Shown: piece by piece, positions 1,854 to 20,736 of the stretch | Layout of the letters: each line of letters begins with the position of its first letter | How positions within the stretch are numbered: the first letter of the stretch is position 1 | Assembly: GCA_005954745.1 (NCBI GenBank) | Contig: CP040678.1 | Span: forward strand, 1,550,001 to 1,614,000 | Origin: Halostella pelagica | Lineage (GTDB): Archaea > Halobacteriota > Halobacteria > Halobacteriales > Natronoarchaeaceae | Direction of reading: 5' to 3' | DNA length: 64,000 bases | Position numbers and translations under genes: made by a program | The notes under the pieces: generated by a model | What the model was told of the DNA's origin: nothing | The model's input: only the letters and a program-made list of their open reading frames with translations | Databases searched by the model: none

Positions 1854-2861
1854 TCAGTCGTCACCGGCGTCACCTCCGTCCGTCGCGGTCGGGGGTTGGC
1901 GTCGCTCCTCGGCGATCTGGCGCTCGTACCGCCGGCGCATGACGTTTCCGTACATCGACAGTACGAGGCCGATGAACAGCACGAGAATGCCGATGTTGAT
2001 CCCGATAGTGAGCAACAGGTTCGTCGGACCGCCGCCGACTGCCAACTCCCTCGGTATGGGATACCCTTCGTCGAAGATGCTTCCGATCAGCACGCTGACG
2101 ATGCCGATGACGGTGAGGAGACCGAGCAGGTTGGCCGCCCAGTTCCACGTCGGCGAGAGTTCGAGGTTCTCGATGCCGGTGGTTTCGTGGTCCTCGTCGG
2201 CGTGATACTCCGGGGTGATGTCTTTCGGGAGGAACGCCTTGAGTTCGACCGGGTAGAACGCCGGGTGCGCGCCGTGTTCGAAGATGTGGAACATCACGCC
2301 CATCAGCATGATGATACCGAGGAGACCGTGGAACACGACGAACGCCATGGCCGACGCCTTCGTCTGGAAGAACCCGACGAGGCCGGTCTTGCTCCAGATG
2401 AGCAGGCCGGAGATCATGAGCAGGGTCAGTTCGACCGCGAATATCCAGACGACGCCTTTCCCGACGTACGACAGCAGCGGGACCTCGTCGGCCTTGTAGC
2501 CGGCGAACTGGCGGGCGTTGGGATGGCGCTCGTCCGCGTACCCCAGCGCGAATTTCACGTCCTGTACCGCGGCCTCGATATCGTCAGTTCCGGGGAGTAC
2601 AGCACCGAAGTTATCTCGACCGCCGGGCGTGATGAGAAGCAGCGTCATCCAGAATATAGTCAACGCGATCAGTCCGAGGCCGGCGATGCGATGTACCGCG
2701 ACCACGCCGCTGCTCCCGCCGGTCGCCTCGACCAGCCACCAGAGTTCGTCGTTGAACATGATGGCGTATCCGGTGAAAAACAGCAGGAACACGTCTAGCG
2801 CCAGCAGCGAGTGAAACAGGGTCGTGACCCGGGTGAACTTCCCGTGGTCGAGGCTGGTCAT
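1854..2861 (-). CDS. Formate dehydrogenase gamma subunit (cytochrome b)
   Basis: 335 aa. Membrane diheme cytochrome b of the FdnI/FdoI type, which takes electrons from the Fe-S subunit to quinone. It has four main hydrophobic helices: LFHSLLALDVFLLFFTGY near the N-terminus, the VHRIAGLGLIALTIFWM region, WIFAVELTLLMISGLLIW, and VVFHGLLGIIMLMGVMFH. These carry histidines suited to heme ligation. A haloarchaeal C-terminal extension adds two further helices and an acidic tail. Its ATG overlaps the stop of the upstream 192-aa gene (ATGA), so translation is coupled. It is the terminal membrane anchor of the operon. Confidence 0.9.
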   Translation of the reverse strand: MTSLDHGKFTRVTTLFHSLLALDVFLLFFTGYAIMFNDELWWLVEATGGSSGVVAVHRIAGLGLIALTIFWMTLLLITPGGRDNFGAVLPGTDDIEAAVQDVKFALGYADERHPNARQFAGYKADEVPLLSYVGKGVVWIFAVELTLLMISGLLIWSKTGLVGFFQTKASAMAFVVFHGLLGIIMLMGVMFHIFEHGAHPAFYPVELKAFLPKDITPEYHADEDHETTGIENLELSPTWNWAANLLGLLTVIGIVSVLIGSIFDEGYPIPRELAVGGGPTNLLLTIGINIGILVLFIGLVLSMYGNVMRRRYERQIAEERRQPPTATDGGDAGDD

Positions 2862-3436
2862 CCGGCGTCACCTCCGCGCTCACCGTCCGCCTCCGCACCG
2901 CCGTCGGCGGCGACGGCATCCGACCGGCGCGTTTCGCCGGGCTGGCGCATCTGCGACGCGAGGCGACGGAACGCGGCCCAGTGGAGAAACACTATCACGA
3001 GGATGCCGAGGCCCATGAGGGCGTCCGCCGCGTGGATGATGGCGATCATCGCGTCTAGCGCCGGGTCGGTGTTTCCCTGCACCCAGTCCGCGCCGATACC
3101 GCGCTCCTCAACCGTCGGCTGGACGCGGTACAGTTCCTCAGTGAATATCGCCTGCGACTGCGCCCACCAGTACGCGAGCCCGGTCACTATCAGGCCGACG
3201 AGGGCGCTGATGAGGACCGCAAGGCGGTCGGTCAGGCGACTGTCCGGGTCCGTGTAGTTCCGGGGCCGCTCCTTGTGCGGCATCTCCCGGACCGGTTCGC
3301 GCTCCGAGCGAGAGGACGGGTCGGTCCCCGCCTCTCGGTCCCGCTGGTCGGCCGCGTCGCTGTGCGGCGTCCCCCCTTCACGGTCGTCCGGTGGCCGGTC
3401 CGGATCCCGGTCCCGGTCGTCGGACGTCCCGCTCAT
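2858..3436 (-). CDS. Formate dehydrogenase-associated membrane protein
   Basis: 192 aa. A very acidic, Asp/Arg-rich N-terminal region of about 65 residues is followed by two hydrophobic helices (about 72-93, LAVLISALVGLIVTGLAYWW, and about 131-155, AADALMGLGILVIVFLHWAA) and a charged tail. There is no cofactor motif. The start was chosen at 3436 because its ATG overlaps the stop of the ferredoxin subunit (ATGA) and its stop overlaps the cytochrome b start in the same way. Bacterial fdn/fdo operons have no equivalent gene. I infer an assembly or anchoring subunit of the haloarchaeal enzyme. Confidence 0.8.
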   Translation of the reverse strand: MSGTSDDRDRDPDRPPDDREGGTPHSDAADQRDREAGTDPSSRSEREPVREMPHKERPRNYTDPDSRLTDRLAVLISALVGLIVTGLAYWWAQSQAIFTEELYRVQPTVEERGIGADWVQGNTDPALDAMIAIIHAADALMGLGILVIVFLHWAAFRRLASQMRQPGETRRSDAVAADGGAEADGERGGDAG

Positions 3437-4122
3437 CGGTCGAACGCCTCCGCGTCGTCGCCGAAGATGATCTCGAGCGCCTCGTCGTTGAAAAAGGACG
3501 CCTCGCCGCGGCGGTCGAGTTCCTCGGCGATCTGGTCGGCCGTCCCGACGAGAATGGCGTCGGTGGCGCACTCCTCCGCGCAGGCGGGGCCCTTTCCGGA
3601 CTCTAGCTGGCGCTCCTCGCACATGGTGCATTTGTCCATGATACCGCCGCTGCCCGCTAACTCGGCTCCCCCGTCGTTCGACTCCGGGAACTGCGGCGCG
3701 CCGAACGGACACCCCGAGAGACAGTACTGGCAGCCGATGCAGAGGTCGTCGCGTACCTCGACGAAATCGTTCTCGGGGTTCTTGAACAGCGAGTCCGTCG
3801 GGCAGACGGAGACGCAGGGCGCGTTGTCGCAGTGGTAACACTGCATCGGAACGCTGGTTTCGCCCGGGTCTTGCCCCTCGCTCATGGCCACCCCGCTCCG
3901 CGGGTTGTTCTCGGTGTCCTCTGCCATCTGGCCTTCCAGCATCGTCGAGATACTGATCCGTTGTTCGTCGCGCGGGATGTCCCACGTGCGCTTGCAGGCG
4001 ACGTAGCAACCGCCACAGTCGATACACGCCTCCACGTCCGGGAAGATTCGCGTCCCTTCGCCGGTGCTGAAGACGCTCTGTCTCATCACCTGTCGGTCCT
4101 GGGAGTCTTGGTCAGTTGACAT
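3433..4122 (-). CDS. Formate dehydrogenase beta subunit, four [4Fe-4S] clusters
   Basis: 229 aa. Electron-transfer subunit of the DmsB/FdnH type. Four cysteine groups are visible: CIDCGGCYVACK, CYHCDNAPCVSVCP, CIGCQYCLSGCP and CTMCEERQ...ACAEEC, each with the spacing expected to hold a [4Fe-4S] cluster. There is no signal peptide; it presumably leaves the cell in complex with the Tat-borne catalytic subunit. It starts 2 bp after the fdhA stop and overlaps the next gene by 4 bp. Confidence 0.93.
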   Translation of the reverse strand: MSTDQDSQDRQVMRQSVFSTGEGTRIFPDVEACIDCGGCYVACKRTWDIPRDEQRISISTMLEGQMAEDTENNPRSGVAMSEGQDPGETSVPMQCYHCDNAPCVSVCPTDSLFKNPENDFVEVRDDLCIGCQYCLSGCPFGAPQFPESNDGGAELAGSGGIMDKCTMCEERQLESGKGPACAEECATDAILVGTADQIAEELDRRGEASFFNDEALEIIFGDDAEAFDR

Positions 4123-4124
4123 TG

Positions 4125-7100
4125 TTAATGGCTGTCGTTCGGGCGGTCCCTGACGTCGTACGTCTTCTGTCGGCCGAGACCGGCTTCGTCCTGCGGGAAG
4201 CCCTCGTTAAGCAGGTGCGTGTCCATGTTCAGTTCGTTCAGCAGGTTCTCGGTCGCCTGACGGACGTTCACCAGCGCGGGTTTCGTCTCCTGCATCTGGG
4301 TTTCGGAGTCGTACCCGGGAGACGTGATGATGTTGACACTGTCGCCGATAGCCAGCGGCGTGAGGCCGTCCGGGTAGCGGTCCGAGAGGTCCTGCCCCTT
4401 GTAGACGCCGCCCCAGTGGTACGGGAGGAACACCTCGCGGTCGTTCACCCGCCGGGTGACGCGGGCCTTGACGAGGACGGACCCTCGGTTTGTCGTCGAG
4501 ACGACGACCAGGTCTCCGCCGTCGATGCCGTCGCCGATCTCCTCGGCGAGGTCCGGATGGATCTCCGCGTACATGTGCGGCTGCAGGTCGGCGGTGAAGA
4601 CGTTGTTCCGCGTCTCCGCGCCGCCGCCCTGGTGTTCGACCTGCCGGCCCGTCGTCATGATCGTCTCGAACCCCTGATCCTGTGCCTCTTGTGTGGCCTG
4701 CTCCTGAACGGCGCGGTTGTCCTGGTCGAGGCGATAGAGGTTCGTCTGCGGGCCGAACGCCGGCCACTCGTCGGCCAGATCGGGACGCGGGCTTTCGATC
4801 GGTTCGCGGTGGATCGGGACGGGGTCGTAGAAGTTCCACGCGACGGCACGCGCCCGACCGCGGCCGGTCGGCGGGTCGGGCTGTCGGTTCTGGTACTCCT
4901 CGTAGTCGGCGGGGTCGAGGTCAGTGATGAACCGGTCCTGGAAGTCCTGTGCGGCGTCGTACGGCGACCGCGCCGGGTTCAGCGCGTACCGGACCGGACC
5001 GGCCATCTGGTCGGAGTTCGATGGGTCCGCCGGAAGCGTGTTCGCGAACCCGGGGTACTGCGGGACGCCCTCGACCTCGCTATCCCACCAGTCGGGCTGG
5101 TAGGAACTCCGGAGCATGTCCAGCCCCTCGTCTCCCTGCTGGTCGTACGTCTCGCTGAGCGGGTACTCCTCGGCCGGGAACCCGCTTTCGCCGCGGACGG
5201 TCTCCCAGTCGTCTGGACTGGGGGCTTCAGTTCCCCACCGTGCGCGGAAGTCGTGGCCCCCCTCTCGCGGGTCCAACCGGTCGCGCCAGATGATTGGGGT
5301 GCCGGGGTGGTCGGGGACGTTTTCGTTCGGGCTGGTCCCCCAGCACGGCCACGGCAGTTGCCAGAACTCGCCCTCGTACGGCCCGGCTTTCGCCTGCAGA
5401 TCCTCGGTACTGAACACCTCGTCGTACTCCTGCTGGGCCTGCAACCGCTCGGGCGACATCTGGTAGCCGATGGTGCGGACACCCAGGTTGATCTCCCGCA
5501 TCACGTCCTCGTAGGACTCCGTGCCGTTGTACAGTTCCGGCCCCGGACCCCAGTTGAAGTGTTCGCCGAACCCGAGACGGTCGGCGAGTTGCTGGATGAT
5601 CTGGAGGTCGGGTCGGGTGTTGTGCCCCGGCGGCCGAACCGGCTCCTTCCACTGAACGGAGCGGTGGGAGTTGGTCACGCTACCGGCGTGTTCGTACGGA
5701 CTGGCACAGGGCAGGAAGATGACTCCGTCGTCCCGCTCGGCCATCACGGACGCCACCGACGGGAACATGTCGATGACGACGAGGAGGTCGAGCGCCTCCA
5801 TCGCCTGTTTCATCCGGTCCATCTCGGTCAGTGAGTTCGCCGAATGCCCCTGGAAGACGGCCATCTTCGTCTTCTCGGGCTGATAGAGCGTGGACTCGAT
5901 CAGGCGGTCCTCCTGGTCCAGCGCGGACTCGTACCACCGCGAGACGGTCAGACCGTTCTGGAACATCATCGAGGTGTCGTCCTCCTGATCGCCCGGGTCG
6001 CCGATGACGGCGTCGCCGCCGCCGGCCTGCTCCTGCCAGAGTTCCTCGGGCATGTGGTCGAACTTCTCGTACAGGTCCTCGAAGCTGACCTCCCCCTCCG
6101 TGTACGGGCTCTTCGTCCAGACGTTCGCCCAGTGCCGCCACGAGTCCACCGACGAGACGGAGTAGTACCCCGGCAGGATGTGAGCGTTCGGCCCGAGGTC
6201 GGTCGTCCCCTGGATGTTCGCGTGTCCCCGCATGACCTGCAATCCGCCGCCCGCACGGCCGATACCGCCCGTCGCCAGCGCAGTGATGGCGTGGGCGCGG
6301 ATGTTCTGCGTGCCGTTGGTGTGTTGGGTGCCGCCCATCGCCCACTCTATCTGGACGTTGGGCATGTTCTCGATGATGAGATCGCCGACCTCCTCGATCG
6401 ACTCCTCGCTGATCCAGGTGATGTCAGACACCGTTTCGAGGTCGTAGTTCTCCAGTTCGGCTTCGACGTCGGGCCACCCGTTGACCCGCCCCTCGATGTG
6501 GTTCCGGTCGAGCGCGTCGTTGTTGAGGAGGTAGTTGATCAGTCCGAGCATGAACGCCGTGTCAGTGCCGGACCGAAGCCGGTAGAACTGGTCGGCGTGG
6601 GCAGCGGTCTTGGTGAACCGCGGTTCCACGACGATCAGCGTCCCGCCGCGCTTTTGCCCTTCGAGGATGTGCTGCATCGCGATCGGGTGGGCCTCGGCGG
6701 GGTTCTGTCCGATGATGATGTCCAGGTCGTAGTTGCGGTAGTCGTTGATCGTGTTCGTCATCGCGCCGTAGCCCCACGTGTTCGCGAGGCCGGCGACAGT
6801 CGGCGAGTGGCAGATCCGCGCCTGATGGTCGACGTTGTTCGTCCCCATAAAGGAGATCAGTTTGCGAAGCGCGTACGCCTCCTCGTTGGAGTGGTGAGCG
6901 CTGCCGAGCCAGTAGATACTGTCTCGGCCGTACTCGTCCCAGATCCGCTCTATCTCGCCGACGATAGTGCTGTACGCCTGTTCCCACGTGATCTTCTGCC
7001 ACTCGCCGTCGACGCGCTGTAGCGGGTGTTTGACCCGCTTGTCGGAGTGTTCGGTTTCGTAGATGCTCGCCCCTTTCGCACAGACCGACCCGTTGTTGAT

Positions 7101-7361
7101 CGGGTTCTCGAACCAGGGCTCCTGACCGACGAACGCGTTCCCCCGTCGCTCGCCCTTGAAACCGCAGCCGACGGCGCAGTAGTTACACACCGAGTTAACG
7201 GTCTCGTTCTCGCCGAGGGCACCGTCCGGCGTCTCGTCTTCGCCCTCCTGAGCGAGAACGTGCCCCGCCGCTCCGCCACCGATGGCGACCGCTCCGGCGA
7301 GCGCGCTCGCCTTCATGAACGACCGTCGATCGAGGTCGAGTTGCACTGGTTCGTTGCTCAC
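4125..7361 (-). CDS. fdhA: Formate dehydrogenase alpha subunit (Mo/W-bis-MGD)
   Basis: 1078 aa. Oxidises formate to CO2 at a Mo or W bis-pyranopterin centre. A Tat signal (DRRSFMKASALAG, residues 11-23) predicts export outside the membrane. Cys59-x2-Cys62-x3-Cys66-x27-Cys94 binds the proximal [4Fe-4S] cluster. The motif ICHSPTVAGL places Cys184-His185 where bacterial FdhH has selenocysteine-His, so Cys is the probable metal ligand. The C-terminal molydopterin dinucleotide-binding domain is present. It is first of a four-gene operon, divergent from the HdrA/MvhD-like gene. The related nitrate reductases lack this Cys-His pair, which supports formate as substrate, though the true substrate is untested. 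Confidence 0.93.
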   Translation of the reverse strand: MSNEPVQLDLDRRSFMKASALAGAVAIGGGAAGHVLAQEGEDETPDGALGENETVNSVCNYCAVGCGFKGERRGNAFVGQEPWFENPINNGSVCAKGASIYETEHSDKRVKHPLQRVDGEWQKITWEQAYSTIVGEIERIWDEYGRDSIYWLGSAHHSNEEAYALRKLISFMGTNNVDHQARICHSPTVAGLANTWGYGAMTNTINDYRNYDLDIIIGQNPAEAHPIAMQHILEGQKRGGTLIVVEPRFTKTAAHADQFYRLRSGTDTAFMLGLINYLLNNDALDRNHIEGRVNGWPDVEAELENYDLETVSDITWISEESIEEVGDLIIENMPNVQIEWAMGGTQHTNGTQNIRAHAITALATGGIGRAGGGLQVMRGHANIQGTTDLGPNAHILPGYYSVSSVDSWRHWANVWTKSPYTEGEVSFEDLYEKFDHMPEELWQEQAGGGDAVIGDPGDQEDDTSMMFQNGLTVSRWYESALDQEDRLIESTLYQPEKTKMAVFQGHSANSLTEMDRMKQAMEALDLLVVIDMFPSVASVMAERDDGVIFLPCASPYEHAGSVTNSHRSVQWKEPVRPPGHNTRPDLQIIQQLADRLGFGEHFNWGPGPELYNGTESYEDVMREINLGVRTIGYQMSPERLQAQQEYDEVFSTEDLQAKAGPYEGEFWQLPWPCWGTSPNENVPDHPGTPIIWRDRLDPREGGHDFRARWGTEAPSPDDWETVRGESGFPAEEYPLSETYDQQGDEGLDMLRSSYQPDWWDSEVEGVPQYPGFANTLPADPSNSDQMAGPVRYALNPARSPYDAAQDFQDRFITDLDPADYEEYQNRQPDPPTGRGRARAVAWNFYDPVPIHREPIESPRPDLADEWPAFGPQTNLYRLDQDNRAVQEQATQEAQDQGFETIMTTGRQVEHQGGGAETRNNVFTADLQPHMYAEIHPDLAEEIGDGIDGGDLVVVSTTNRGSVLVKARVTRRVNDREVFLPYHWGGVYKGQDLSDRYPDGLTPLAIGDSVNIITSPGYDSETQMQETKPALVNVRQATENLLNELNMDTHLLNEGFPQDEAGLGRQKTYDVRDRPNDSH

Positions 7362-7645: not shown

Positions 7646-9796
7646 ATGAACACGGGGGCTTTCGTCTGCGCCTGCGGGGACGGGTGCGCCGTAGACCCGG
7701 AGGAAGCGCGGGACAGTGTCGAAGGCGTCGACGTAGTCGCGAGTTCGAGCCATCTCTGCGATGACGGCCTGCCAGCGATGTCGCAGGTGATAGACGAACA
7801 CGACCTGGACCAGTTGCTCGTCACCGCGGTCGACGACGGATGCAAGCGCCGGTTACGCGGCCTCGCTGACGAGCATGATCTCCACCCCGAAGCGGTCGAC
7901 TTCGTCGACCACCGCGAGAGCGCCGGATGGGTACACGGGAGAGACGCGGCGTCGGAGAAGACGGCGCGAATGCTGACCGCCCGTCACGCCGGCCTGCGAG
8001 AGGAACCGGTGTCCCGTTCGGTCTCTCGCGACGCCGGAAACGACGTGGTCGTCGTCGGCGACGCGAAAACCGCCAGCGCACTGGCGGGGGATACGGGGTC
8101 GACCGGTGACGCGGAGATAACGCTGATCGCAAACGGCGGCGAATACGCGGGAGTGGACGCAAACTTAGACGACGTGACTGTCGAACGAGGCCGGGTCACC
8201 CGCGTCGACGGCGAATACGGCGAGTTCGAGGTGACCGTCGAAGCCCGGGTCACCGAAGACTGCATCTCCTGTATGGACTGCGTCCGCGAAGGGCCGGACG
8301 GCATGGTCGCACGCGTTCCCGTCGACATCGTACCCGACGCCCCCGACGGAGAGTGGACGGAGTGCTGTCCGACGAACGCCATCGAGATGGACGGCGTCGA
8401 ACGCGCTATCGAAGCGGATCAGGTGATCTACCCCGCCGCGACGTCCGCCGACCGCGGCGGGCGTCTCGGGTTTTATACTGGTCCCGTCGACGCCGGGACC
8501 GTCGCGGCGGTCGAACGGCTACTCGGCGGCCTGGAAAAACCGCAGCATCTGGACATCGACATGGACGTCTGCGCGTCCGGGGCGTCGAGCAAGCGCGGAT
8601 GCAACGAGTGCGTAGAGGCCTGTCCGCACGGCGCGGTCGAACGGCCGCGCATCGACGAGGTCGAGTTCGACCCCGTCGCCTGCCAGGACTGCGGGGCCTG
8701 CACTAGTTCCTGTCCCACCGGCGCGGTCCGGTTGCGGGACCCCTCGAACGAACGGATCGCCCGCGAAGTCGAGGCGCTCGTCCGGCCCCGCGAATCCGGC
8801 GGTCTGTTCGGCGGCGACGACCCCATCGGTGAGCAGGTCGTCACGTTCGTCTGCTCGGAACGCGCCGACGACGCCGTTCGGGAGTACGGCCGCCTTTCCG
8901 CGGCGGGACGGGACCTCTCGTATCCGCCGGTGTTGCCGGTCCGGGTCGACTGTACGGACACGGTCGGCGAGGCCCACGCGCTCCACGCGCTCGCGAGCGG
9001 GGCCGACGGGGTTGCCGTCGTCGGATGCGGCGGATCCTGTCTCCACTCCGGCCCCGATCCGAAGGCGACACTGGTCGACAGCGTCAACGCAGCGTGTCGC
9101 GACCTCGGGCTGGGTGAACGCGTCGACTTCTTCGCGCCCGACCCCCGCGACCCAGACGGGTTCGTCGACGCCCTCTCCGCGTTCGTAAACGGGCTCGACG
9201 ACTCCCCGGTTCCCGCGGGCGAACACGTCGCGACCGGCGACGTAGACGACGGACGAGAGACGCCGCCGTTCGACAATCACGGGTGGGCGCTGGAGAGCGT
9301 CCGGGCGATAGTCGACCACACCGATCCTGACCGCGACGTGATCCGAGGGCTATCGGATTTCGGCTGGATGGAGGTCTCCGACGACTGCGCGCTGACGCCT
9401 ACATGTACGAACATGTGTCCGACGGACGCGATCCGCAGAGAGGGGAGTGACCTGCAGTTCGACCACGAACGCTGCGTGAACTGCGGGCTCTGCGAGGACG
9501 GCTGTCCGGAGGGAGCCATCACGATGCGCGACGGACTGGACCTGTCGTTGCTGCCCGAGAATCGAGAGGCCGTCACAGACGCGGACGCCGAATCGAACGA
9601 TCCGGCGTGGATGACGGTGTACGACGGTGAGATGCTGTCCTGTCGCCGCTGCGGTCGCGAGTTCACGAGCGTCGGCTCGGCCGAGAAGGTGAAGGCGGCG
9701 GTCGGCGAGCGGGTCGAGGGTATCGCGCCGGACTCGGAACACAGCGTGTTCGAGTACTGTAACGACTGCCGTGCCAGACTCCACTTCGACACATGA
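7646..9796 (+). CDS. HdrA/MvhD-like polyferredoxin electron-transfer protein
   Basis: 716 aa. The N-terminus (GAFVCACGDGC) resembles the first domain of heterodisulfide reductase subunit HdrA. It is followed by a Rossmann-like stretch (NDVVVVGDAKTASAL) that lacks the usual GxGxxG flavin motif. Next come ferredoxin Cys sets (CISCMDC; CNECVEACPHGAVE; CQDCGACTSSCPTGAV), then an MvhD-type domain (about residues 390-510, with TFVCSE, VDCTD and VGCGGSC), another ferredoxin (CTNMCPTDA, CVNCGLCEDGCP) and a final zinc-ribbon-like CRRCG/CNDC. It is likely cytoplasmic. Divergence from fdh and 4-bp overlap with the TorD-like gene tie it to formate or another Mo/W enzyme. Its electron partner is unknown. 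Confidence 0.85.
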   Translation: MNTGAFVCACGDGCAVDPEEARDSVEGVDVVASSSHLCDDGLPAMSQVIDEHDLDQLLVTAVDDGCKRRLRGLADEHDLHPEAVDFVDHRESAGWVHGRDAASEKTARMLTARHAGLREEPVSRSVSRDAGNDVVVVGDAKTASALAGDTGSTGDAEITLIANGGEYAGVDANLDDVTVERGRVTRVDGEYGEFEVTVEARVTEDCISCMDCVREGPDGMVARVPVDIVPDAPDGEWTECCPTNAIEMDGVERAIEADQVIYPAATSADRGGRLGFYTGPVDAGTVAAVERLLGGLEKPQHLDIDMDVCASGASSKRGCNECVEACPHGAVERPRIDEVEFDPVACQDCGACTSSCPTGAVRLRDPSNERIAREVEALVRPRESGGLFGGDDPIGEQVVTFVCSERADDAVREYGRLSAAGRDLSYPPVLPVRVDCTDTVGEAHALHALASGADGVAVVGCGGSCLHSGPDPKATLVDSVNAACRDLGLGERVDFFAPDPRDPDGFVDALSAFVNGLDDSPVPAGEHVATGDVDDGRETPPFDNHGWALESVRAIVDHTDPDRDVIRGLSDFGWMEVSDDCALTPTCTNMCPTDAIRREGSDLQFDHERCVNCGLCEDGCPEGAITMRDGLDLSLLPENREAVTDADAESNDPAWMTVYDGEMLSCRRCGREFTSVGSAEKVKAAVGERVEGIAPDSEHSVFEYCNDCRARLHFDT

Positions 9797-10419
9797 ACAC
9801 CGACTCCGTCTACGAGGCACGACTCGAACTGTTCGACTTCGCCGTCGACTCGCTTGGCGACGCGCCGAACGAGGCGTTCCTAACTGACCTGTTCTCTGGG
9901 GTGACGGTTCCCGACGACGAGGTCCACCCGTCGCTGGACGAGGGGTTCGCCGCGCTCGAACGGTTCGTCGAGGACAACGAGGACCGACCGATACGCGACG
10001 TGGAGGACGAGTTGACAACCGAGTACACGCGCCTGTTCGTCGGTCTCAGGCCCGTCATCACCCCCCACGAGACGTACTACCGCGACGACACGGAGTACAT
10101 CGGGGAGGGACTCGCCGAAGTCGAGGAGAGCTATCACGCCGTCGGGTGGGAACCGCCGGAGGACTACCCCGAGGAGAACGATTTCGTCGCGGTCGAACTC
10201 GCCTTTCTCAGACACCTGATCCGACGCCAGCGCCGCGGTGAGGCCGAGGCGTTCGGCTACGAACGGGTTTTCCTCGACGAACATCTACTGGAGTGGATAG
10301 ACGAGTTCGCCGCTGACGTGCGCGAGGCGACGGAGTCGGACCTCTACCTCGCCGCGGCGGACATCACCGAGGGCGTCGTCGCCTTCGAGGACGAACTCAC
10401 CGCACAGATGGCACCGTAG
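9793..10419 (+). CDS. TorD/DmsD-family molybdoenzyme chaperone
   Basis: 208 aa, all-helical. Chaperones of this family bind the Tat signal and apo-form of Mo enzymes until the cofactor is inserted. The family core is seen as EYTRLFVGLRPVITPHETYY (about residues 76-95), followed by ELAFLRHLIRR. Its ATG overlaps the upstream stop (ATGA). FdhA, the only Tat-dependent Mo/W enzyme nearby, is the obvious client. Confidence 0.88.
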   Translation: MNTDSVYEARLELFDFAVDSLGDAPNEAFLTDLFSGVTVPDDEVHPSLDEGFAALERFVEDNEDRPIRDVEDELTTEYTRLFVGLRPVITPHETYYRDDTEYIGEGLAEVEESYHAVGWEPPEDYPEENDFVAVELAFLRHLIRRQRRGEAEAFGYERVFLDEHLLEWIDEFAADVREATESDLYLAAADITEGVVAFEDELTAQMAP

Positions 10420-12534: not shown

Positions 12535-12572
12535 GTAGTTGCAAGCAGTGAATTCGCATAAACGCTTGCTAC
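12535..12572. promoter_or_regulatory. Inverted repeat flanking the TATA box of the small membrane operon
   Basis: Arms GTAGTTGCAAGC (12535-12546) and GCTTGCTAC (12564-12572) lie around the sequence GCATAAAC. On the minus strand this is GTTTATGC, a TATA-like box 28 nt from the ATG at 12532. Such a layout would let a dimeric regulator block TBP/TFB binding. The same TTGC-based motif recurs at 12622. Confidence 0.6.
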
Positions 12573-12621
12573 TCTCGGAAAACGTGATACACGACGGGCT
12601 TATACGCCGAGATCCAGTACT

Positions 12622-12645
12622 CTTGCCAAGCGATAGCATGGCAAG
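12622..12645. promoter_or_regulatory. Palindrome CTTGCCA/TGGCAAG over the start codon of the DyP-like gene
   Basis: CTTGCCA (12622-12628) and TGGCAAG (12639-12645) are perfect complements with a 10-nt spacer; the ATG at 12638 lies inside. It could be a second operator for the regulator of the divergent operon, or an RNA hairpin hiding the start. Confidence 0.5.
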
Positions 12646-13870
12646 TCGACGCACACTCCTCGAACGGATCGCGGGTATCGCCGGAGCCGTCGGCCTGGCG
12701 GGGTGTTCGCAGTTCCTACGGCCGGCGCGGTCGGAGACCGACCTCGGATTAGACCCGAACCCGCACGCCGACGGGCTGCCGAACCGTCAGCACGCGCAGT
12801 CGTCGTTCGTCCGGCGAGACCGGCACGGCAATCCGCTGTTGCCCCGGCATCACCGGGTCCTGTTGCTCGACCTGAGCGCGTCGCCGTCGAAAGAAACGGG
12901 CCGCACGATAGAGCGCGCGATGCGAACTCTCGAAGGCGCGTACGAGTGGGGACCCGACGGGCTCTTTCACCTGCTCGCCTGGGGGCCGAACTACTTCGAG
13001 CGAGTGGGTGCACTGGACGCGACACCGGTTCGCCGGCCCGAGGTACTCTCGCGTACGGACGACCCGGACCTCCTCGACTTCGACGCCGCGCTCGCCCTGT
13101 CGAGCGACGTTCCGTCGCACCTCGACGACGCGGAGAACGCTCTGTTCGGTCCGAAGGACTCTCTCGGCGACGTTTCGGTCGACGACCGCCTCGGCGACGT
13201 GTTCTCGACCAGCGGTCGACGCACCGGGTTCATCGGCGAGGGGTTGCCGGTCGAGCACACGGACGCCGAAGGGCTCCCTGAGGACCCGCCGCTGTCCGAC
13301 TCCGACCGGATGTTCATGGGCTTTCGCTCGGGAATGCGCGGCACGCAGGCCAGCGAGGACCGCGTCACCATCGACTCCGGGTCGTTCGAGGGGGGGACGA
13401 CGATGCATCTGAGCCACCTGAGCCAGTCGCTCACTCGCTGGTTCGAGGGGTTCGACCGGAACGAGCGCGTCGCGCGGATGTTCTCCCCGGAGTTCTCCGA
13501 CGATGACGTAGACGAGTTCACCGACACCGTCCCGTTCAGCGACGCCGTCTCAGACCACGCGAGCGAACACGACGTCGTCGGCCACCACGAGAAAGTGGCC
13601 CGGGTCCGCGAGGACGGCGAACCGATCGTCCTTCGGCGGGACTTCAACACCGTCGACGGCAACCGGGCGGGCGTCCACTTCCTCTCATTCCAGGCGTCGC
13701 TCGACGACTTCGAGAAGACGCGAAAGGCGATGAACGGCTGGTACGTCCGCGACGACAGCACCGAAGTGCGTGACCGGCAGAACAACGGCATCCTGGAGTT
13801 CATCACCGTCGAGTCGCGGGCGAACTTCTACGTCCCGACCCGCGAGTACCGAGCGCTGCCGATGTTCTAA
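12638..13870 (+). CDS. Tat lipoprotein related to DyP-type peroxidases
   Basis: 410 aa. Tat/lipobox signal MASRRTLLERIAG...VGLAGCSQ (Cys24) predicts a lipid-anchored extracellular protein. The C-terminal half follows the DyP peroxidase order: FMGFRSGMRG, then EGGTTMHLSHLSQSLTRW with RVARMFSP, then HHEKVARV, VLRRDFNTVDG and GVHFLSFQASLDDFEK, ending GILEFITVESRANFYVP. The signature GxxDG is GFRSG here, so the catalytic Asp is Ser. A His (ASEHDVVGHH) for heme is retained. It may bind heme without normal peroxidase chemistry. Divergent from the tiny membrane genes. Confidence 0.75.
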   Translation: MASRRTLLERIAGIAGAVGLAGCSQFLRPARSETDLGLDPNPHADGLPNRQHAQSSFVRRDRHGNPLLPRHHRVLLLDLSASPSKETGRTIERAMRTLEGAYEWGPDGLFHLLAWGPNYFERVGALDATPVRRPEVLSRTDDPDLLDFDAALALSSDVPSHLDDAENALFGPKDSLGDVSVDDRLGDVFSTSGRRTGFIGEGLPVEHTDAEGLPEDPPLSDSDRMFMGFRSGMRGTQASEDRVTIDSGSFEGGTTMHLSHLSQSLTRWFEGFDRNERVARMFSPEFSDDDVDEFTDTVPFSDAVSDHASEHDVVGHHEKVARVREDGEPIVLRRDFNTVDGNRAGVHFLSFQASLDDFEKTRKAMNGWYVRDDSTEVRDRQNNGILEFITVESRANFYVPTREYRALPMF

Positions 13871-15026: not shown

Positions 15027-15851
15027 TTACTCCGTCAGTTCCCAGTTCGCCTTCGCCGCCGCGTCTGCCACGGGGACGAACTCCCAGTCCGCCCGCTCGG
15101 CGATGTACTCGTCCTCGCCTTCGACGCCGACGACGACCATGCGCTCCGAGTAGAACATCGAGTGCACGTCGATCTCCGCCAGCCGTTCGCCCGGGCCCGT
15201 TCCCGTGCCGTTGAAGAAGTCGGCGTCGACGCCGTGGTTGCGCTGGAAGGTGCCGATGACGTGGGCTGGCACGTCGCCGACGATACCGATCCAGTCGGAC
15301 CAGACCTTCGCGTCGGCGACGGCCGCGGCGGGGTTCGCCAGGCGCTTCGCGGCCTCGTAGGTCAGCGCAGTCACCATGTCGTCGACACCGCCGCCGTGGG
15401 GGCCGCTCGCCTCCGCGTCCGGCGGTGCCGCGGCGGTCGCGTCAGACTCGCCCTCGCTCCCGGCACCTGCTCCGCCGGACCGCTTCGGGATCCCGACTGG
15501 ATCGCCCCGGTTCTCCCGCGGGACGTGCGGGACGCGCGCCTCGCCGCTGGCGTCAGAGGCCTGACCGGCATCGCGGTCGGAACCGTCCGCGACGTCTCGG
15601 ATCCTCGGCGACGGCACGCCGTCACCGCCCGCTTCGGATATCGGTTGGTCGTCCGTCGAGTCGCTGTCGGTAGCGTCTACGAAAGAGTCGCCCGAGGACG
15701 ACGGCCCGACCGGCGCGTCCTCGGCGGACTGCGTCGAGACGGGGGCGTCGTCGTCACCGTCGTCCCGCCAGATCCAGTCGCCCGGGCTCGGTTCGCCGTC
15801 TTCGGTCCCGTCGTCGGCGTCGATGTCGTCGAGGTCGATGCGTTCGGTCAT
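15027..15851 (-). CDS. Haloarchaeal DUF7124-type protein coupled to AOR
   Basis: 274 aa. The first 150 residues are low-complexity and Asp/Ser/Pro-rich. The conserved part is C-terminal (about 155-274), with MVTALTYEAAKRLANP, DAKVWSDWIGIVGDVPAHVI and IDVHSMFYSERMVVVGVEGE. The ATG at 15851 overlaps the AOR stop (ATGA), so the two are translationally coupled. DUF7124 is a haloarchaea-restricted family of unknown role; this context suggests a partner of the AOR-like enzyme. Confidence 0.8.
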   Translation of the reverse strand: MTERIDLDDIDADDGTEDGEPSPGDWIWRDDGDDDAPVSTQSAEDAPVGPSSSGDSFVDATDSDSTDDQPISEAGGDGVPSPRIRDVADGSDRDAGQASDASGEARVPHVPRENRGDPVGIPKRSGGAGAGSEGESDATAAAPPDAEASGPHGGGVDDMVTALTYEAAKRLANPAAAVADAKVWSDWIGIVGDVPAHVIGTFQRNHGVDADFFNGTGTGPGERLAEIDVHSMFYSERMVVVGVEGEDEYIAERADWEFVPVADAAAKANWELTE

Positions 15852-17614
15852 AGTTCTGGTGCCCCGGCGGGACCGTCCGCGAGGGGCGTGTCGTCGTCGA
15901 CCGCGTCTGTGAGATCCAACCGTTCGCACAGCGCTCGTGTGGGACGCCCGTCGAACCCCCAGTCGCGGGCCGCGTAATACCGCGTGAGGAGCCGGTCGAA
16001 CTCGTCCGGGTCGATACCGTCCGAGTCGTCGACTGGGCGCGTCAGTACCTCCGGGAGTTCGTCGTCCGAGCGGTCGAACCCCTCTCGCACGTTGAACAGG
16101 CGGACCAGAGTCCAGATCCGCTCGCCGGCGGCCCGCAGTTCGTCCGGCGTCCGGCTCTCGCCCGCGGCCGCGAACCACTCCGCGGCGAGGTCGTCGAGCA
16201 CCTCGCCGGCGAAGTCGTCCCCCACCAGGCTCCAGACGAGCGACCGGCGGTCCTGTTCAGCGACGACGGCGCGGACGCGGTCGGCGTCGGACCAGTCGCC
16301 GAACACCTCCTCCTCGACGGGGCGGGCGCGCCGGTGGCACGCGCCGCGGTCGCTGGTCGCGTACGCGAGCGCCATCGCTCTGGACCCGCGGGGGTCGTAC
16401 CCCGGTAGCTCCATCGCTTTCACGGTCGGGACGAGCCCCTCACCGCCGAACCGCTCTGCGGCCGCCGCGACGCCGTCAGCGAGCGCGTCGCCGAGCGGCG
16501 TCGACCGCGACGCTATTTCCTCTATCAGCACGCGGGCACCGTCCTCGTCCCCGAACGAGAGGTCGCGGTCGAGGACGCCCTCCTCGCTGGCGCGGACCGC
16601 CCATGCTACCGCGCTGCCGGCGCTGATGACGTCGACGCCCAAGCGGTCACAGGTTTCACCGAGCGTGGCGACGGCGTCGAACTCGCCGACGCCGAGTCCC
16701 GCGCCGAGCGACATCGCGGTCCCGCCGCGCGGGACGTACTCGCCGGACTCCGTCTCGACGCGGAAGCCGCCGGGCACGTCGTCGTCCTCGCGTTCGCGTC
16801 CGCTCGAAGCCTCGCGGACGGCCGCGACCCCGACCGCGTCCGCGCTCTCGAACTCGCTCTCTTGCCACCCGCGCGTGGAGAGGACGCCGACCTCGTCGGC
16901 GAACTCGACCGATTCGACGGTGCCGCTGGCGCGCTGCCACCGGCCGACATCCGCGTTCAGGTAGTCGTCGGTGTATCGCTCACGAAGGTCGCCGAACCCC
17001 TCGGGCGGGTCGCCCCGGGCGACGACGGCTTTCAGGCGCTTCGACCCCATGACTGCACCCGCGCCGCCCCTGCCCGCGTGGTGGTCGGCGTCGTCCGAAG
17101 CGATGGTCGCGTACTGGACTTCCTGTTCGCCCGCGGGGCCGACGCAGGCCACCGCGGCGTCCGGACGAGCGGTACACGTCTCGACCGCGTCTTCGCCCCA
17201 CTGGTCGCTCCGGGCGACCGTCGCATCGCCGTCCGCCACTTCGACCCTGACGGGGTCGTCGGCCCGCCCGGTGACGAGCAGTCCGAGATGGTCCTCAAGG
17301 GCACCCGAGAGCCGTTCGGCGAAGCCGCCGCCGCTGTACGAGTCCAGAAACGTGCCGGTCAGCGGCGATTTCGTGACCGCCGCATAGCGCGGTTCACCCG
17401 GCAACACCGCCGAGAGCGGGCCCTGCATGAACAGAAGCGCGTTCGCCGGACCGAGCGGGTCGGTTCCGGGGGCGAGTTCCTCGTAGAGGTAGCGGGCCCC
17501 GAGTCCTTTCCCGCCGACGTATCGGCGAAGCCACTCCGCCGGCACCCGTTCGCTACTCACGGTAGCCGCGGTGAGATCCACCCGTAAGAGGCGGTCGGGT
17601 AGGTCGTACTCCAT
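15848..17614 (-). CDS. Aldehyde ferredoxin oxidoreductase homologue lacking the Fe-S cluster ligands
   Basis: 588 aa. Tungsto-pterin enzymes of this family oxidise aldehydes and reduce ferredoxin. Family landmarks are present: RYVGGKGLGARYLYEEL, LTGTFLDSYSGGGFAERL, GRGGAGAVMGSKRLKAVV, KAMELPGYDPRG and ATSDRGACHRRA. The CxxCxxxC normally found in the middle is absent: that region reads EASSGREREDDDVPGGFRVE. The fourth Cys expected after the SLG-like motif is also missing (LVWSLVGDDFAG). The pterin/W site may be kept, but electron transfer to ferredoxin by the usual route cannot work. It is coupled to a DUF7124 gene. Confidence 0.85.
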   Translation of the reverse strand: MEYDLPDRLLRVDLTAATVSSERVPAEWLRRYVGGKGLGARYLYEELAPGTDPLGPANALLFMQGPLSAVLPGEPRYAAVTKSPLTGTFLDSYSGGGFAERLSGALEDHLGLLVTGRADDPVRVEVADGDATVARSDQWGEDAVETCTARPDAAVACVGPAGEQEVQYATIASDDADHHAGRGGAGAVMGSKRLKAVVARGDPPEGFGDLRERYTDDYLNADVGRWQRASGTVESVEFADEVGVLSTRGWQESEFESADAVGVAAVREASSGREREDDDVPGGFRVETESGEYVPRGGTAMSLGAGLGVGEFDAVATLGETCDRLGVDVISAGSAVAWAVRASEEGVLDRDLSFGDEDGARVLIEEIASRSTPLGDALADGVAAAAERFGGEGLVPTVKAMELPGYDPRGSRAMALAYATSDRGACHRRARPVEEEVFGDWSDADRVRAVVAEQDRRSLVWSLVGDDFAGEVLDDLAAEWFAAAGESRTPDELRAAGERIWTLVRLFNVREGFDRSDDELPEVLTRPVDDSDGIDPDEFDRLLTRYYAARDWGFDGRPTRALCERLDLTDAVDDDTPLADGPAGAPEL

Positions 17615-17690: not shown

Positions 17691-18335
17691 ATGCCGACCG
17701 GAGTGATAATCGCCGGCGGACGGTCGACCAGATTCGGCGAAGAAGACAAGGCCGTCGCGGAACTGGGCGGAACGCCGATGATCCGCCGGGTCGCCGACCG
17801 GATCACGGGCGTCGTCGAGTCGCTGGTCGTCAACTGCCGCGAGGACCAGGTCGAACCGATCCGCGAGGCGATGCGAGGCTACGATCACGACGTCTCCTTC
17901 GCCGTCGACCCGGATCCCAACCAGGGGCCGATGGCGGGTATCCGGAACGGCCTGCGCGCCGTCGACACCGAGTACGCCTTCGTCGTCGCCTGCGACATGC
18001 CCTTCGTCGACCCGGACATCGCGTCGTACCTGTTCGACCGCGCGGCGGACTACGACGCCGCCGTGGTACAACTCGACGACCAGTGGTACCAGACCACGCA
18101 GGCCGTCTACCGTGCGGAAGCGATGGCCGACGCGTGCGACGACGCGCTCGCGGCGGGAGAGCACAAGATACTCGAACCGCTGTTCGACCTGAACTACGTC
18201 GTCGTGGAGGGAACCGAGATAGAGTCGGTCGGGTCGACCGAGACGTTCGAGAACCTGAACACCCGCGAGGAGTTCGAGGCGGCGGCCGAGCGGTTCGCGG
18301 ACGGCGAGAGCGACTCGAACGATAGTAGCCACTGA
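17691..18335 (+). CDS. mobA: Molybdenum cofactor guanylyltransferase
   Basis: 214 aa. Joins GMP to molybdopterin to make the MGD form needed by fdhA-type enzymes. The nucleotide-binding start GVIIAGGRSTRFGEEDKAVA (residues 4-23) has the LAGGxSxRxGxDK pattern. The metal site is VVACDMPFVDPD (about 102-113) and GPMAGIRNGL is also typical. Divergent from the AOR-like gene 76 bp away, in an island of Mo/W genes. A strong hairpin follows the stop. Confidence 0.92.
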   Translation: MPTGVIIAGGRSTRFGEEDKAVAELGGTPMIRRVADRITGVVESLVVNCREDQVEPIREAMRGYDHDVSFAVDPDPNQGPMAGIRNGLRAVDTEYAFVVACDMPFVDPDIASYLFDRAADYDAAVVQLDDQWYQTTQAVYRAEAMADACDDALAAGEHKILEPLFDLNYVVVEGTEIESVGSTETFENLNTREEFEAAAERFADGESDSNDSSH

Positions 18336-18748: not shown

Positions 18749-18864
18749 TCGACGGAAAAGCCCAATCGGCCGCGCGAACAAGACGGAGAACCCGGGAACT
18801 GTCGGCCGCGACGCAAGTGAACGGTTCGCAACCCTTATCGGCGTTTCCGCGCCTATCACCGGGC

Positions 18865-19896
18865 ATGAACGCAGACGACGTGCTCGACTTGCTGCGCGAG
18901 GTGGAGGACCCGGACCTCGGCGACGACATCGTCTCCCTGAACCTCGTCAACGACGTGACCGTCGAGGACGAGACGGCGCACGTCTCGCTGGCGCTCGGCG
19001 CGCCGTACTCGCCCAACGAGACGCGGATCGCGGAGCGCGTGCGCGAGGTGCTCGGCGATGCCGGCCTCGAAACGGACCTCTCGGCCGAGGTCGACTCGGG
19101 GCTCTCGCCAGAGGAGCAAGTGCTTCCCGACGTAGAGAACATCATCGCCGTCGCCAGCGGGAAAGGCGGCGTCGGCAAGAGCACCGTCGCGGTCAACCTC
19201 GCCGCCGGCCTCTCGCAGATGGGCGCGCGGGTCGGCCTGTTCGACGCGGACGTGTACGGGCCGAACGTCCCGCGGATGGTCGACGCCGAAGAGGTTCCGC
19301 AAGCCACCGCCGACGAGACGATCATCCCGCCCGAACAGTTCGGGATGAAGCTGATGAGCATGGCCTTTCTCGTCGGCGAGGACGACCCCGTCATCTGGCG
19401 CGGCCCGATGGTCCACAAGATCCTCACCCAACTCTGGGAGGACGTCGACTGGGGACACCTCGACTACATGGTCGTCGACCTGCCGCCGGGCACTGGTGAC
19501 ACGCAGTTGACCCTGCTCCAGAGCGTCCCCATCGCGGGGTCGGTCATCGTCACGACGCCCCAGGAGGTCGCGCTGGACGACGCCCGCAAAGGGCTGGAGA
19601 TGTTCGGCAAGCACGACACGCCCGTCCTCGGCATCGCCGAGAACATGGCGACGTTCAAATGTCCCGACTGCGGCAGCGACCACCCCATCTTCGGCGAGGG
19701 CGGCGGCGAGCGCTTCGCCGAGGAACACCAGATGCCGTTTCTCGGCTCCGTCCCGCTCGACCCCGAGGTTCGGACCGGTGGCGACGAGGGCGAACCCGTC
19801 GTCCTCGACGAGGACAGCGAGACGGGGCAGGCGTTCCGCGACATGACCGAGCGAGTCGCGAACAACGTCGGGATCGTCAAGCGGCGCACGCAGTAA
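18865..19896 (+). CDS. Mrp/ApbC (NBP35-type) Fe-S cluster carrier ATPase
   Basis: 343 aa. An N-terminal MIP18/DUF59 domain (residues 1-85; VEDPDLGDDIVSLNLV) is fused to a deviant-Walker P-loop ATPase (ASGKGGVGKST, about 97-107). Also present are DADVYGPNVPRM, DLPPGTGDTQLTL and, near the C-terminus, CPDC (about 267-270), the cluster-bridging pair of the dimer. It delivers [4Fe-4S] clusters to target proteins. The ATG at 18865 was chosen because upstream residues do not fit the family. Useful to the Fe-S-rich enzymes encoded nearby. Confidence 0.93.
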   Translation: MNADDVLDLLREVEDPDLGDDIVSLNLVNDVTVEDETAHVSLALGAPYSPNETRIAERVREVLGDAGLETDLSAEVDSGLSPEEQVLPDVENIIAVASGKGGVGKSTVAVNLAAGLSQMGARVGLFDADVYGPNVPRMVDAEEVPQATADETIIPPEQFGMKLMSMAFLVGEDDPVIWRGPMVHKILTQLWEDVDWGHLDYMVVDLPPGTGDTQLTLLQSVPIAGSVIVTTPQEVALDDARKGLEMFGKHDTPVLGIAENMATFKCPDCGSDHPIFGEGGGERFAEEHQMPFLGSVPLDPEVRTGGDEGEPVVLDEDSETGQAFRDMTERVANNVGIVKRRTQ

Positions 19897-20007: not shown

Positions 20008-20736
20008 ATGGACATCGTCGACGCCCTCGACGCGGCAGGCGGGACGACCTGTCTCGTCGGCGCAGGCGGGAAGAAGACGACGCTGTACGCGCTCGCTGAC
20101 CGGATCGACCGCGCCGTCGTGACGGCGACGGTCCGGATCCCCATCTTCGACCGACACGTCGCGGAGGTCGTCGTGACCGACGATCCGGCCGATGCGGTCC
20201 GAACGGCCGACCGCTGGCCGCTCGGACTCGTCCCCGAACGAGAGCGCGAGGACCGGTACCCAGGCTACGATCCCGAGACAATCACGGCTATCGCGGCGGC
20301 GGACGCCGCTGACGCCGTTCTCGTCAAGGCCGACGGCGCGCGGACGAGGGAGTTCAAGGCTCCGAACGACCGGGAACCGCAGGTCCCGCCGTCGGCGGAT
20401 ACGGTCGTTCCCGTCGCGAGCGCCCACGCGGTCGGCAAGCCCCTGACGAGCGAGTACGTCCACCGACCCGAACGCGTCGCGGCGATCACCGGTCGCGACG
20501 AGGGCGACGAGATCCGGCCCGTCGACGTCGCGGCAGTGCTCGCCAGCGACGACGGCGGGATGCGGGGCGTTCCTGACGGAGCGAGGGCGATCCCGCTGAT
20601 AAACAAGGTCGACGACGAGGAACTGGCGGCGGTCGCGGGTGACATCGCGGCGGAGGTACTCGCCCGGAGCGACGTGCCGAAGGTCGTGCTCGCGCGGATG
20701 GCCGACCCCGACCCGCTCGTCGCCGTCGAGGAGTAG
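20008..20736 (+). CDS. YqeC-type Mo/Se hydroxylase accessory protein
   Basis: 242 aa. P-loop-like GAGGKKTT (residues about 18-25), then ADGARTREFKAPNDREPQVP and PLINKVDD typical of YqeC. In bacteria this family accompanies selenium- or Mo-dependent hydroxylases and MobA-like proteins; its reaction is not settled. Here it sits 2.4 kb from mobA, and no selenoprotein gene is visible, so a role in Mo/W cofactor maturation is more likely. It stands alone, 111 bp after apbC. Confidence 0.82.
   Translation: MDIVDALDAAGGTTCLVGAGGKKTTLYALADRIDRAVVTATVRIPIFDRHVAEVVVTDDPADAVRTADRWPLGLVPEREREDRYPGYDPETITAIAAADAADAVLVKADGARTREFKAPNDREPQVPPSADTVVPVASAHAVGKPLTSEYVHRPERVAAITGRDEGDEIRPVDVAAVLASDDGGMRGVPDGARAIPLINKVDDEELAAVAGDIAAEVLARSDVPKVVLARMADPDPLVAVEE

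Follow-up and report, generated by a model that had tools for sequence, protein, structure and literature searches.

A haloarchaeal clade of the aldehyde oxidoreductase family without the [4Fe-4S] cysteines and its association with YqeC and formate dehydrogenases

Large subunits of the aldehyde oxidoreductase family (AOR/WOR) vary little in the way they coordinate their metallopterin and their [4Fe-4S] cluster, as set out in a 2025 review and a 2026 classification (PMC12096430; PMC13328260). In AORs, catalysis involves Thr243, Glu313, Tyr427 and His448 (P. furiosus numbering), while Tyr312 and Glu311 lie close to the metal (PMC12096430; PMC13328260); a bridging Mg is ligated by the main chain of residues 93 and 183 (PMC12096430). 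In BamB and YdhV the usual second-shell residues are missing, but W/Mo is still bound (PMC12096430). This E. coli YdhV/BamB branch, whose roles are non-aldehyde or unknown, resembles the protein described here in that loss; unlike it, the branch has a Cys ligand to the metal and Fe-S electron-transfer partners.

A second described system centers on YqeC, a protein for which we know of no established function. Haft and Self proposed that it is an accessory protein of molybdenum hydroxylases (PMC2276186), and C. difficile showed no clear phenotype when yqeC was deleted (PMC11448449). In the selenium-cofactor trait of molybdenum hydroxylases, YqeC is joined by YqeB and SelD. The locus reported here likewise has a YqeC family member and a MobA-type enzyme close together. 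Unlike in that trait, however, YqeC is found with a formate dehydrogenase (FDH) and an AOR-like protein, and mostly without SelD.

The AOR-like protein is encoded in a 64-kb stretch of the Halostella pelagica genome, hereafter the window (Table 1). It belongs to the AOR/WOR family by descent: both AFOR domains are present over nearly its full length (Pfam AFOR_N, 198 bits, residues 8-201; AFOR_C, 285 bits, residues 220-568). Its best solved relatives are AORs, and alignments with them run over its entire length (P. furiosus 1aor, E 1.3e-68; 9mqx, E 2.8e-79). With these enzymes it shares the whole fold, as judged by profile. The domain profile search found no DNA-binding or signalling domain, and public records label members of the clade aldehyde ferredoxin oxidoreductase domain proteins. 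The same genome also encodes two canonical AORs with the cysteines in place, L001 and L002. The former is of the type of Haloferax volcanii WOR83 (9q1t), likewise a haloarchaeal family member; WOR83 has a canonical cluster and active site, and L001 is about 33% identical to the AOR-like protein.

Table 1. Features of the AOR-like gene and its neighbourhood (positions in the window)
Feature	Position	Strand	Basis or remark
FDH gamma-type cytochrome b subunit, weak match	1854..2861	-	TIGR01583, E 4e-4
FDH beta-type Fe-S subunit	3433..4122	-	
FDH-like catalytic subunit, Cys-His active-site pair, Tat-like signal	4125..7361	-	TIGR01591, 449 bits, below cut-off of 666
HdrA-like polyferredoxin protein, 716 aa	7646..9796	+	Beside membrane-type FDH
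TorD/DmsD-type molybdoenzyme chaperone	9793..10419	+	PF02613
DUF7124 protein, 274 aa, no Cys	15027..15851	-	Start overlaps AOR-like stop (ATGA)
Cys-less AOR-family protein, 588 aa	15848..17614	-	ATG start; ORF, Pfam and alignment
Asp466 at fourth cluster ligand, Cys494	16217..16219	-	Asp in 62/62
Arg-Gly-Gly (residues 296-298) replacing catalytic Glu311-Tyr312-Glu313 of P. furiosus AOR	16721..16729	-	Clade alignment; roles from PMC12096430
Ser/Glu/Asp-rich stretch (residues 268-286) replacing CxxCxxxC	16757..16813	-	Alignment to 1AOR and paralogs
MobA-like molybdopterin guanylyltransferase, divergent from AOR-like gene	17691..18335	+	PF12804, 131 bits; TIGR02665, 110 bits, below cut-off
ApbC/Mrp Fe-S carrier	18817..19896	+	Neighbour within same genus only
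YqeC-family protein	20008..20736	+	TIGR03172, 173 bits; PF19842

What sets the protein apart is the absence of the cluster ligands. In alignments with the P. furiosus enzyme and with paralogs from this and related genomes, ASSGREREDDDVPGGF stands in place of the CxxCxxxC stretch, and positions 288, 291, 295 and 494 are occupied by D277, V280, F284 and D466. All four ligand cysteines expected of a functional ferredoxin-linked AOR (288, 291, 295 and 494) are absent from 62 of 62 clade sequences, the query included (50-80% identity to the query). They are kept in 20 canonical AORs and in the five closest paralogs, which are sister sequences; gaps at Cys288 in some of these are alignment shifts, for their sequences show CxxCxxxC. 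An earlier, sequence-only reading of this DNA had noted the missing cysteines and their Ser/Glu/Asp-rich replacement, and had asked whether the loss is conserved among haloarchaea. The observation holds, and the loss is conserved. The same reading allowed for a sequencing error in this segment, which the agreement of the 62 sequences excludes. The gene is under purifying selection: comparison with two orthologs from the same genus gives a dN of 0.14 against a dS of 0.64-0.72 (dN/dS about 0.2). Together with the 62 agreeing sequences, this rules out a pseudogene. We found no argument in favour of sequencing error or gene decay, and the chance that either explains the missing cysteines is negligible.

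Could other residues take over from the lost ligands? Across the clade, cysteine is conserved in three columns only (157, 322 and 426). Because Cys322 and Cys426 align with Cys337 and Cys447, which are present in canonical AORs too, no replacement four-cysteine site is evident. A cluster held by other cysteines was rejected because the clade has no four conserved ones. A new metal site built from Cys322, Cys426, His427, His178, His179 and Asp466, replacing both the tungstopterin and the cluster, is a highly improbable alternative. Each of its residues is kept in 61-62 of 62 sequences, and in the alignment they lie at or beside positions of the old cofactor site. Most of them, however, also occur in relatives that have the cysteines: the paired histidines recur in the sister clade, and canonical enzymes have Cys337 and Cys447. 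An AlphaFold2 model built from four sequences is too poor for use (mean pLDDT 39, pTM 0.32).

The claim of the sequence-only reading that all pterin and tungsten landmarks are present proves right only in part. Thr243 and His448 are kept in 62 of 62 sequences and Tyr427 in 58 of 62; Arg76 and the first pterin motif (DxxGxD343) also persist. On the other hand, Glu311 has become Arg, Tyr312 Gly and Glu313 Ala, Gly or Ser; none of these three proton-relay residues survives in any of the 62 sequences, and the second-shell set of Thr243, Glu313, Tyr427 and His448 is broken throughout by the loss of Glu313. The second pterin motif is not intact either. Asp489, a residue that contacts one pterin in 1AOR, is Trp in 62 of 62, and Cys494 is Asp. 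With Asp489 replaced, binding of a bis-pterin cofactor by the AOR-like protein is not assured; as the same residue is also replaced in relatives that keep the cysteines, its loss is not diagnostic of cofactor loss. Asn93 has become Tyr and Ala183 His, changes that main-chain ligation of the Mg could survive. The invariant residues of the clade include Tyr93, His178, His179, Arg182, Arg296, His427, Arg428, Arg429, Trp461 and Asp466. We consider the canonical ferredoxin-linked mechanism very unlikely, and ordinary aldehyde oxidation with ferredoxin equally so; the site appears to be selected for something else.

How did this clade arise? In a maximum-likelihood tree, the sequences without the cysteines are monophyletic (SH-aLRT 100). 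Their sister is a haloarchaeal clade with the cysteines (96), followed by L130, a Halobacteriota sequence from outside the haloarchaea (99). The closest sequences outside the clade have all four cysteines in place, so the cluster was lost once. The sister clade (L074, L077, L079 and L080) is about 43% identical to the AOR-like protein and has Tyr93, His-His at 182/183, Arg450 and an aromatic residue at 489 in common with it; unlike the AOR-like protein, it keeps the four cysteines, Glu311 and Glu313. Tyr93 and the aromatic residue at 489 are already found in L130 and the sister clade, which argues that the pocket changed stepwise and the cluster was lost last. A side observation concerns L074, L075, L077, L079, L080 and L130, all of which have the cysteines, Tyr93 and an aromatic residue at position 489, where canonical AORs have Asp. 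They are an uncharacterised type of AOR whose neighbours, judged by sequence, look catabolic (oxidoreductases and transporters in the sister clade). The Natrialba magadii plasmid NC_013923 has a match at the same place as L080.

The AOR-like protein is widespread in haloarchaea. Matches at E <= 1e-70 occur in 211 of 392 genomes of the order, most at 59-80% identity, a few of them being the paralog with the cysteines. Weak order-wide matches (E 1e-100 to 1e-150) were examined in 14 genomes. Some were true orthologs, the match having been split by the search or the gene being cut or frameshifted, and others belonged to the sister clade; elsewhere, weak matches were counted as orthologs only within genomes G000-G194. 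On the strength of this check, G072 and G154 were left out of the ortholog-bearing set. Orthologs are found in roughly half of the 392 haloarchaeal genomes. No close relative was seen outside the haloarchaea in 247 genomes across the phylum, and the five best non-haloarchaeal matches all carry the cysteines; a scan of viral contigs found no relative. A description of a cluster-less AOR clade was not found in the open-access literature searched. The tree of Schut 2021 reportedly has 92 clades, and this one may sit in it unremarked.

Gene context is the strongest clue to function. In the window, the AOR-like gene diverges from mobA, which is followed by apbC and yqeC; torD, the HdrA-like gene and the fdhA-fdhB-cytochrome b set lie farther off. 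It is doubtful that apbC belongs to the module. The window YqeC has a P-loop-like stretch, GAGGKKTT, at its N-terminus. The HdrA-like polyferredoxin is a possible electron acceptor of the neighbouring FDH. A DUF7405 protein with a lipoprotein-like N-terminus (12539-13870, + strand) is conserved beside the FDH/HdrA/TorD set in several loci.

The sequence-only reading had suggested that the DUF7124 gene may supply the missing partner. The overlap of the two genes is real, but a protein without a single cysteine is a poor candidate for carrying electrons. Furthermore, the DUF7124 domain is near-universal in haloarchaea (193 of 195 genomes), its gene adjoins the AOR-like gene in only about half of 22 loci, and a second copy is absent from 32 of the 96 ortholog-bearing genomes. 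We rejected this partner.

The 22 flanked loci were chosen from the better matches across many families rather than at random. An FDH alpha gene lies within 10 kb in 14 of them, and an FDH-linked HdrA-like gene in three more; among the remainder are loci with C1 genes, for instance those for a dimethylglycine dehydrogenase/GcvT-type protein and FolD. In L056, L057 and L061, fdhA is directly adjacent to the AOR-like gene; in L104 and L105 the two genes are arranged tail to tail. In L109, a single run comprises the AOR-like gene, yqeC, moaA, moaE, moaC, a mog/moaB-like gene, mobA, moeA and moeA. On annotated plasmids of Haloterrigena turkmenica and Halomicrococcus, the AOR-like gene is found by fdhF, with glyA or a formamidase gene. 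The type of FDH nearby differs between loci. In L054 (8492-8791, + strand), L052 and L111, the space between the AOR-like gene and NAD-type FDH genes encodes an acidic protein of about 100 residues that belongs to no known family.

No partner is more closely tied to the AOR-like gene than YqeC. A YqeC gene (TIGR03172) is present in 95 of the 96 ortholog-bearing genomes and in 23 of 99 others, 118 of 195 in all (Fisher p 5e-32, a test that ignores phylogeny); the one exception is a genome only 77% complete. Contrasts within one genus agree: G000, G001 and G004 have both genes together, G003 has neither, and in G002 the sole YqeC is the one linked to SelD. At 48 of 76 mapped places, the AOR-like gene has YqeC within 15 kb, and at 25 or more of the 76 it has a listed FDH within that distance; for one gene in 3.5 Mb, simple arithmetic predicts about 1%. 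The FDH figure is a lower bound in that it counts the best FDH matches and the window-type FDH scores low. From the side of YqeC, 42 of 133 places are within 15 kb of a listed FDH.

Does selenium explain this association? SelD exceeds the cut-off in 17 of 195 genomes, 15 of them with the AOR-like gene. The pairing of SelD with YqeC that marks the selenium-dependent molybdenum hydroxylase trait is thus found in only 15 of 96 ortholog-bearing genomes, and 80 of these have YqeC with no SelD over the cut-off, so we rejected selenium as a general explanation. In several of those 15 genomes, SelD adjoins an additional YqeC that lies on another contig. The genome studied here is one of them (G000 contig C2:250086-252069, outside the window); its SelD-YqeC pair probably represents the selenium-cofactor trait and is separate from the window's FDH-linked YqeC. 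Genomes with two copies, one by SelD and one by the AOR-like gene, indicate that YqeC cannot simply be equated with selenium in haloarchaea. We doubt that 'selenium cofactor biosynthesis protein' is a fitting family name for most haloarchaeal members.

Every ortholog-bearing genome among the 195 has an FDH match. In a tree of 48 FDH sequences, hand-picked from the top matches with other copies from the same genomes left out, two clades come from genomes that nearly all have YqeC and mostly have the AOR-like gene. The genomes of a third clade mostly lack both, and none of its sequences is from a genome with the AOR-like gene. The window's own FDH is too distant to be placed. All FDH sequences carry the Cys-His pair of Cys-type FDHs. 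We regard the apparent split of FDH clades by presence of the AOR-like gene as a lead. Many genomes have FDH without the AOR-like protein, and some YqeC-FDH loci also lack the gene; thus it is not a general requirement for FDH.

Neighbouring FDH, YqeC and molybdenum cofactor genes point to a role in building or delivering the FDH cofactor. We propose, at a little less than even confidence, that the AOR fold now serves to bind the metallopterin of YqeC-associated FDHs, or to pass it on, rather than to oxidise aldehydes. The old site, now lined by the invariant residues listed above, would still bind molybdo- or tungstopterin or the nucleotide form of this cofactor. Working with YqeC and MobA, the AOR-like protein would mature or protect this cofactor or hand it to those FDHs, and would not itself pass electrons through a cluster. 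Work in E. coli shows that the nucleotides of bis-MGD have a part in its insertion into a target enzyme (PMC9103625), and this insertion is a known step at which the protein could act. The sequence-only reading had offered another acceptor, a non-redox reaction or a scaffold; the last of these, in the sense of binding, fits the gene context best.

An unlikely but serious competitor is a genuine metallopterin enzyme of C1 metabolism, making or using formate, for example. YqeC would then mature its cofactor, and electrons would go directly to the HdrA-like protein or FDH, or the reaction would be non-redox. Such an enzyme would explain the retention of Arg76, Thr243, Tyr427, His448 and DxxGxD343, and, as a client of YqeC, it would almost never occur without it, as is observed. 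BamB and YdhV, too, bind W/Mo without the usual second-shell residues (PMC12096430). The C1 genes found in several loci beside FDH (dimethylglycine dehydrogenase/GcvT, FolD, GlyA and formamidase) would suit a metabolic enzyme equally well. However, Glu311 and Glu313 are gone in 62 of 62 sequences, there is no cluster to draw electrons from a buried pterin, and an FDH type that varies by locus leaves no fixed redox partner. We prefer cofactor handling because loss of the cluster and of the catalytic Glu contrasts with a cofactor-site neighbourhood that is kept and rebuilt with basic residues, because YqeC is the closest partner, and because molybdenum cofactor genes accompany the AOR-like gene in several loci.

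We find it improbable that the protein is a pseudoenzyme with no metal cofactor of its own, acting as a sensor of formate, pterin or metal that regulates FDH or makes it more stable. The loss of catalytic and cluster residues and the gain of many clade-specific invariant ones would fit this role, but the lack of a DNA-binding or signalling domain speaks against it, and a pseudoenzyme would have no need to keep pocket residues such as His448 and Arg76.

We give somewhat less credence to a fuller account: the entire AOR fold may have been converted once, in an event so far seen in haloarchaea alone, into a carrier or insertase for metallopterin that has no cluster and that matures specific FDHs in concert with MobA and a SelD-independent YqeC. 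A large, conserved clade without the cluster breaks the rule that [4Fe-4S] coordination is nearly invariant in the AOR/WOR family. The link between the AOR-like protein and YqeC in genomes without SelD bears on the function of YqeC, which has so far been tied to a selenium cofactor.
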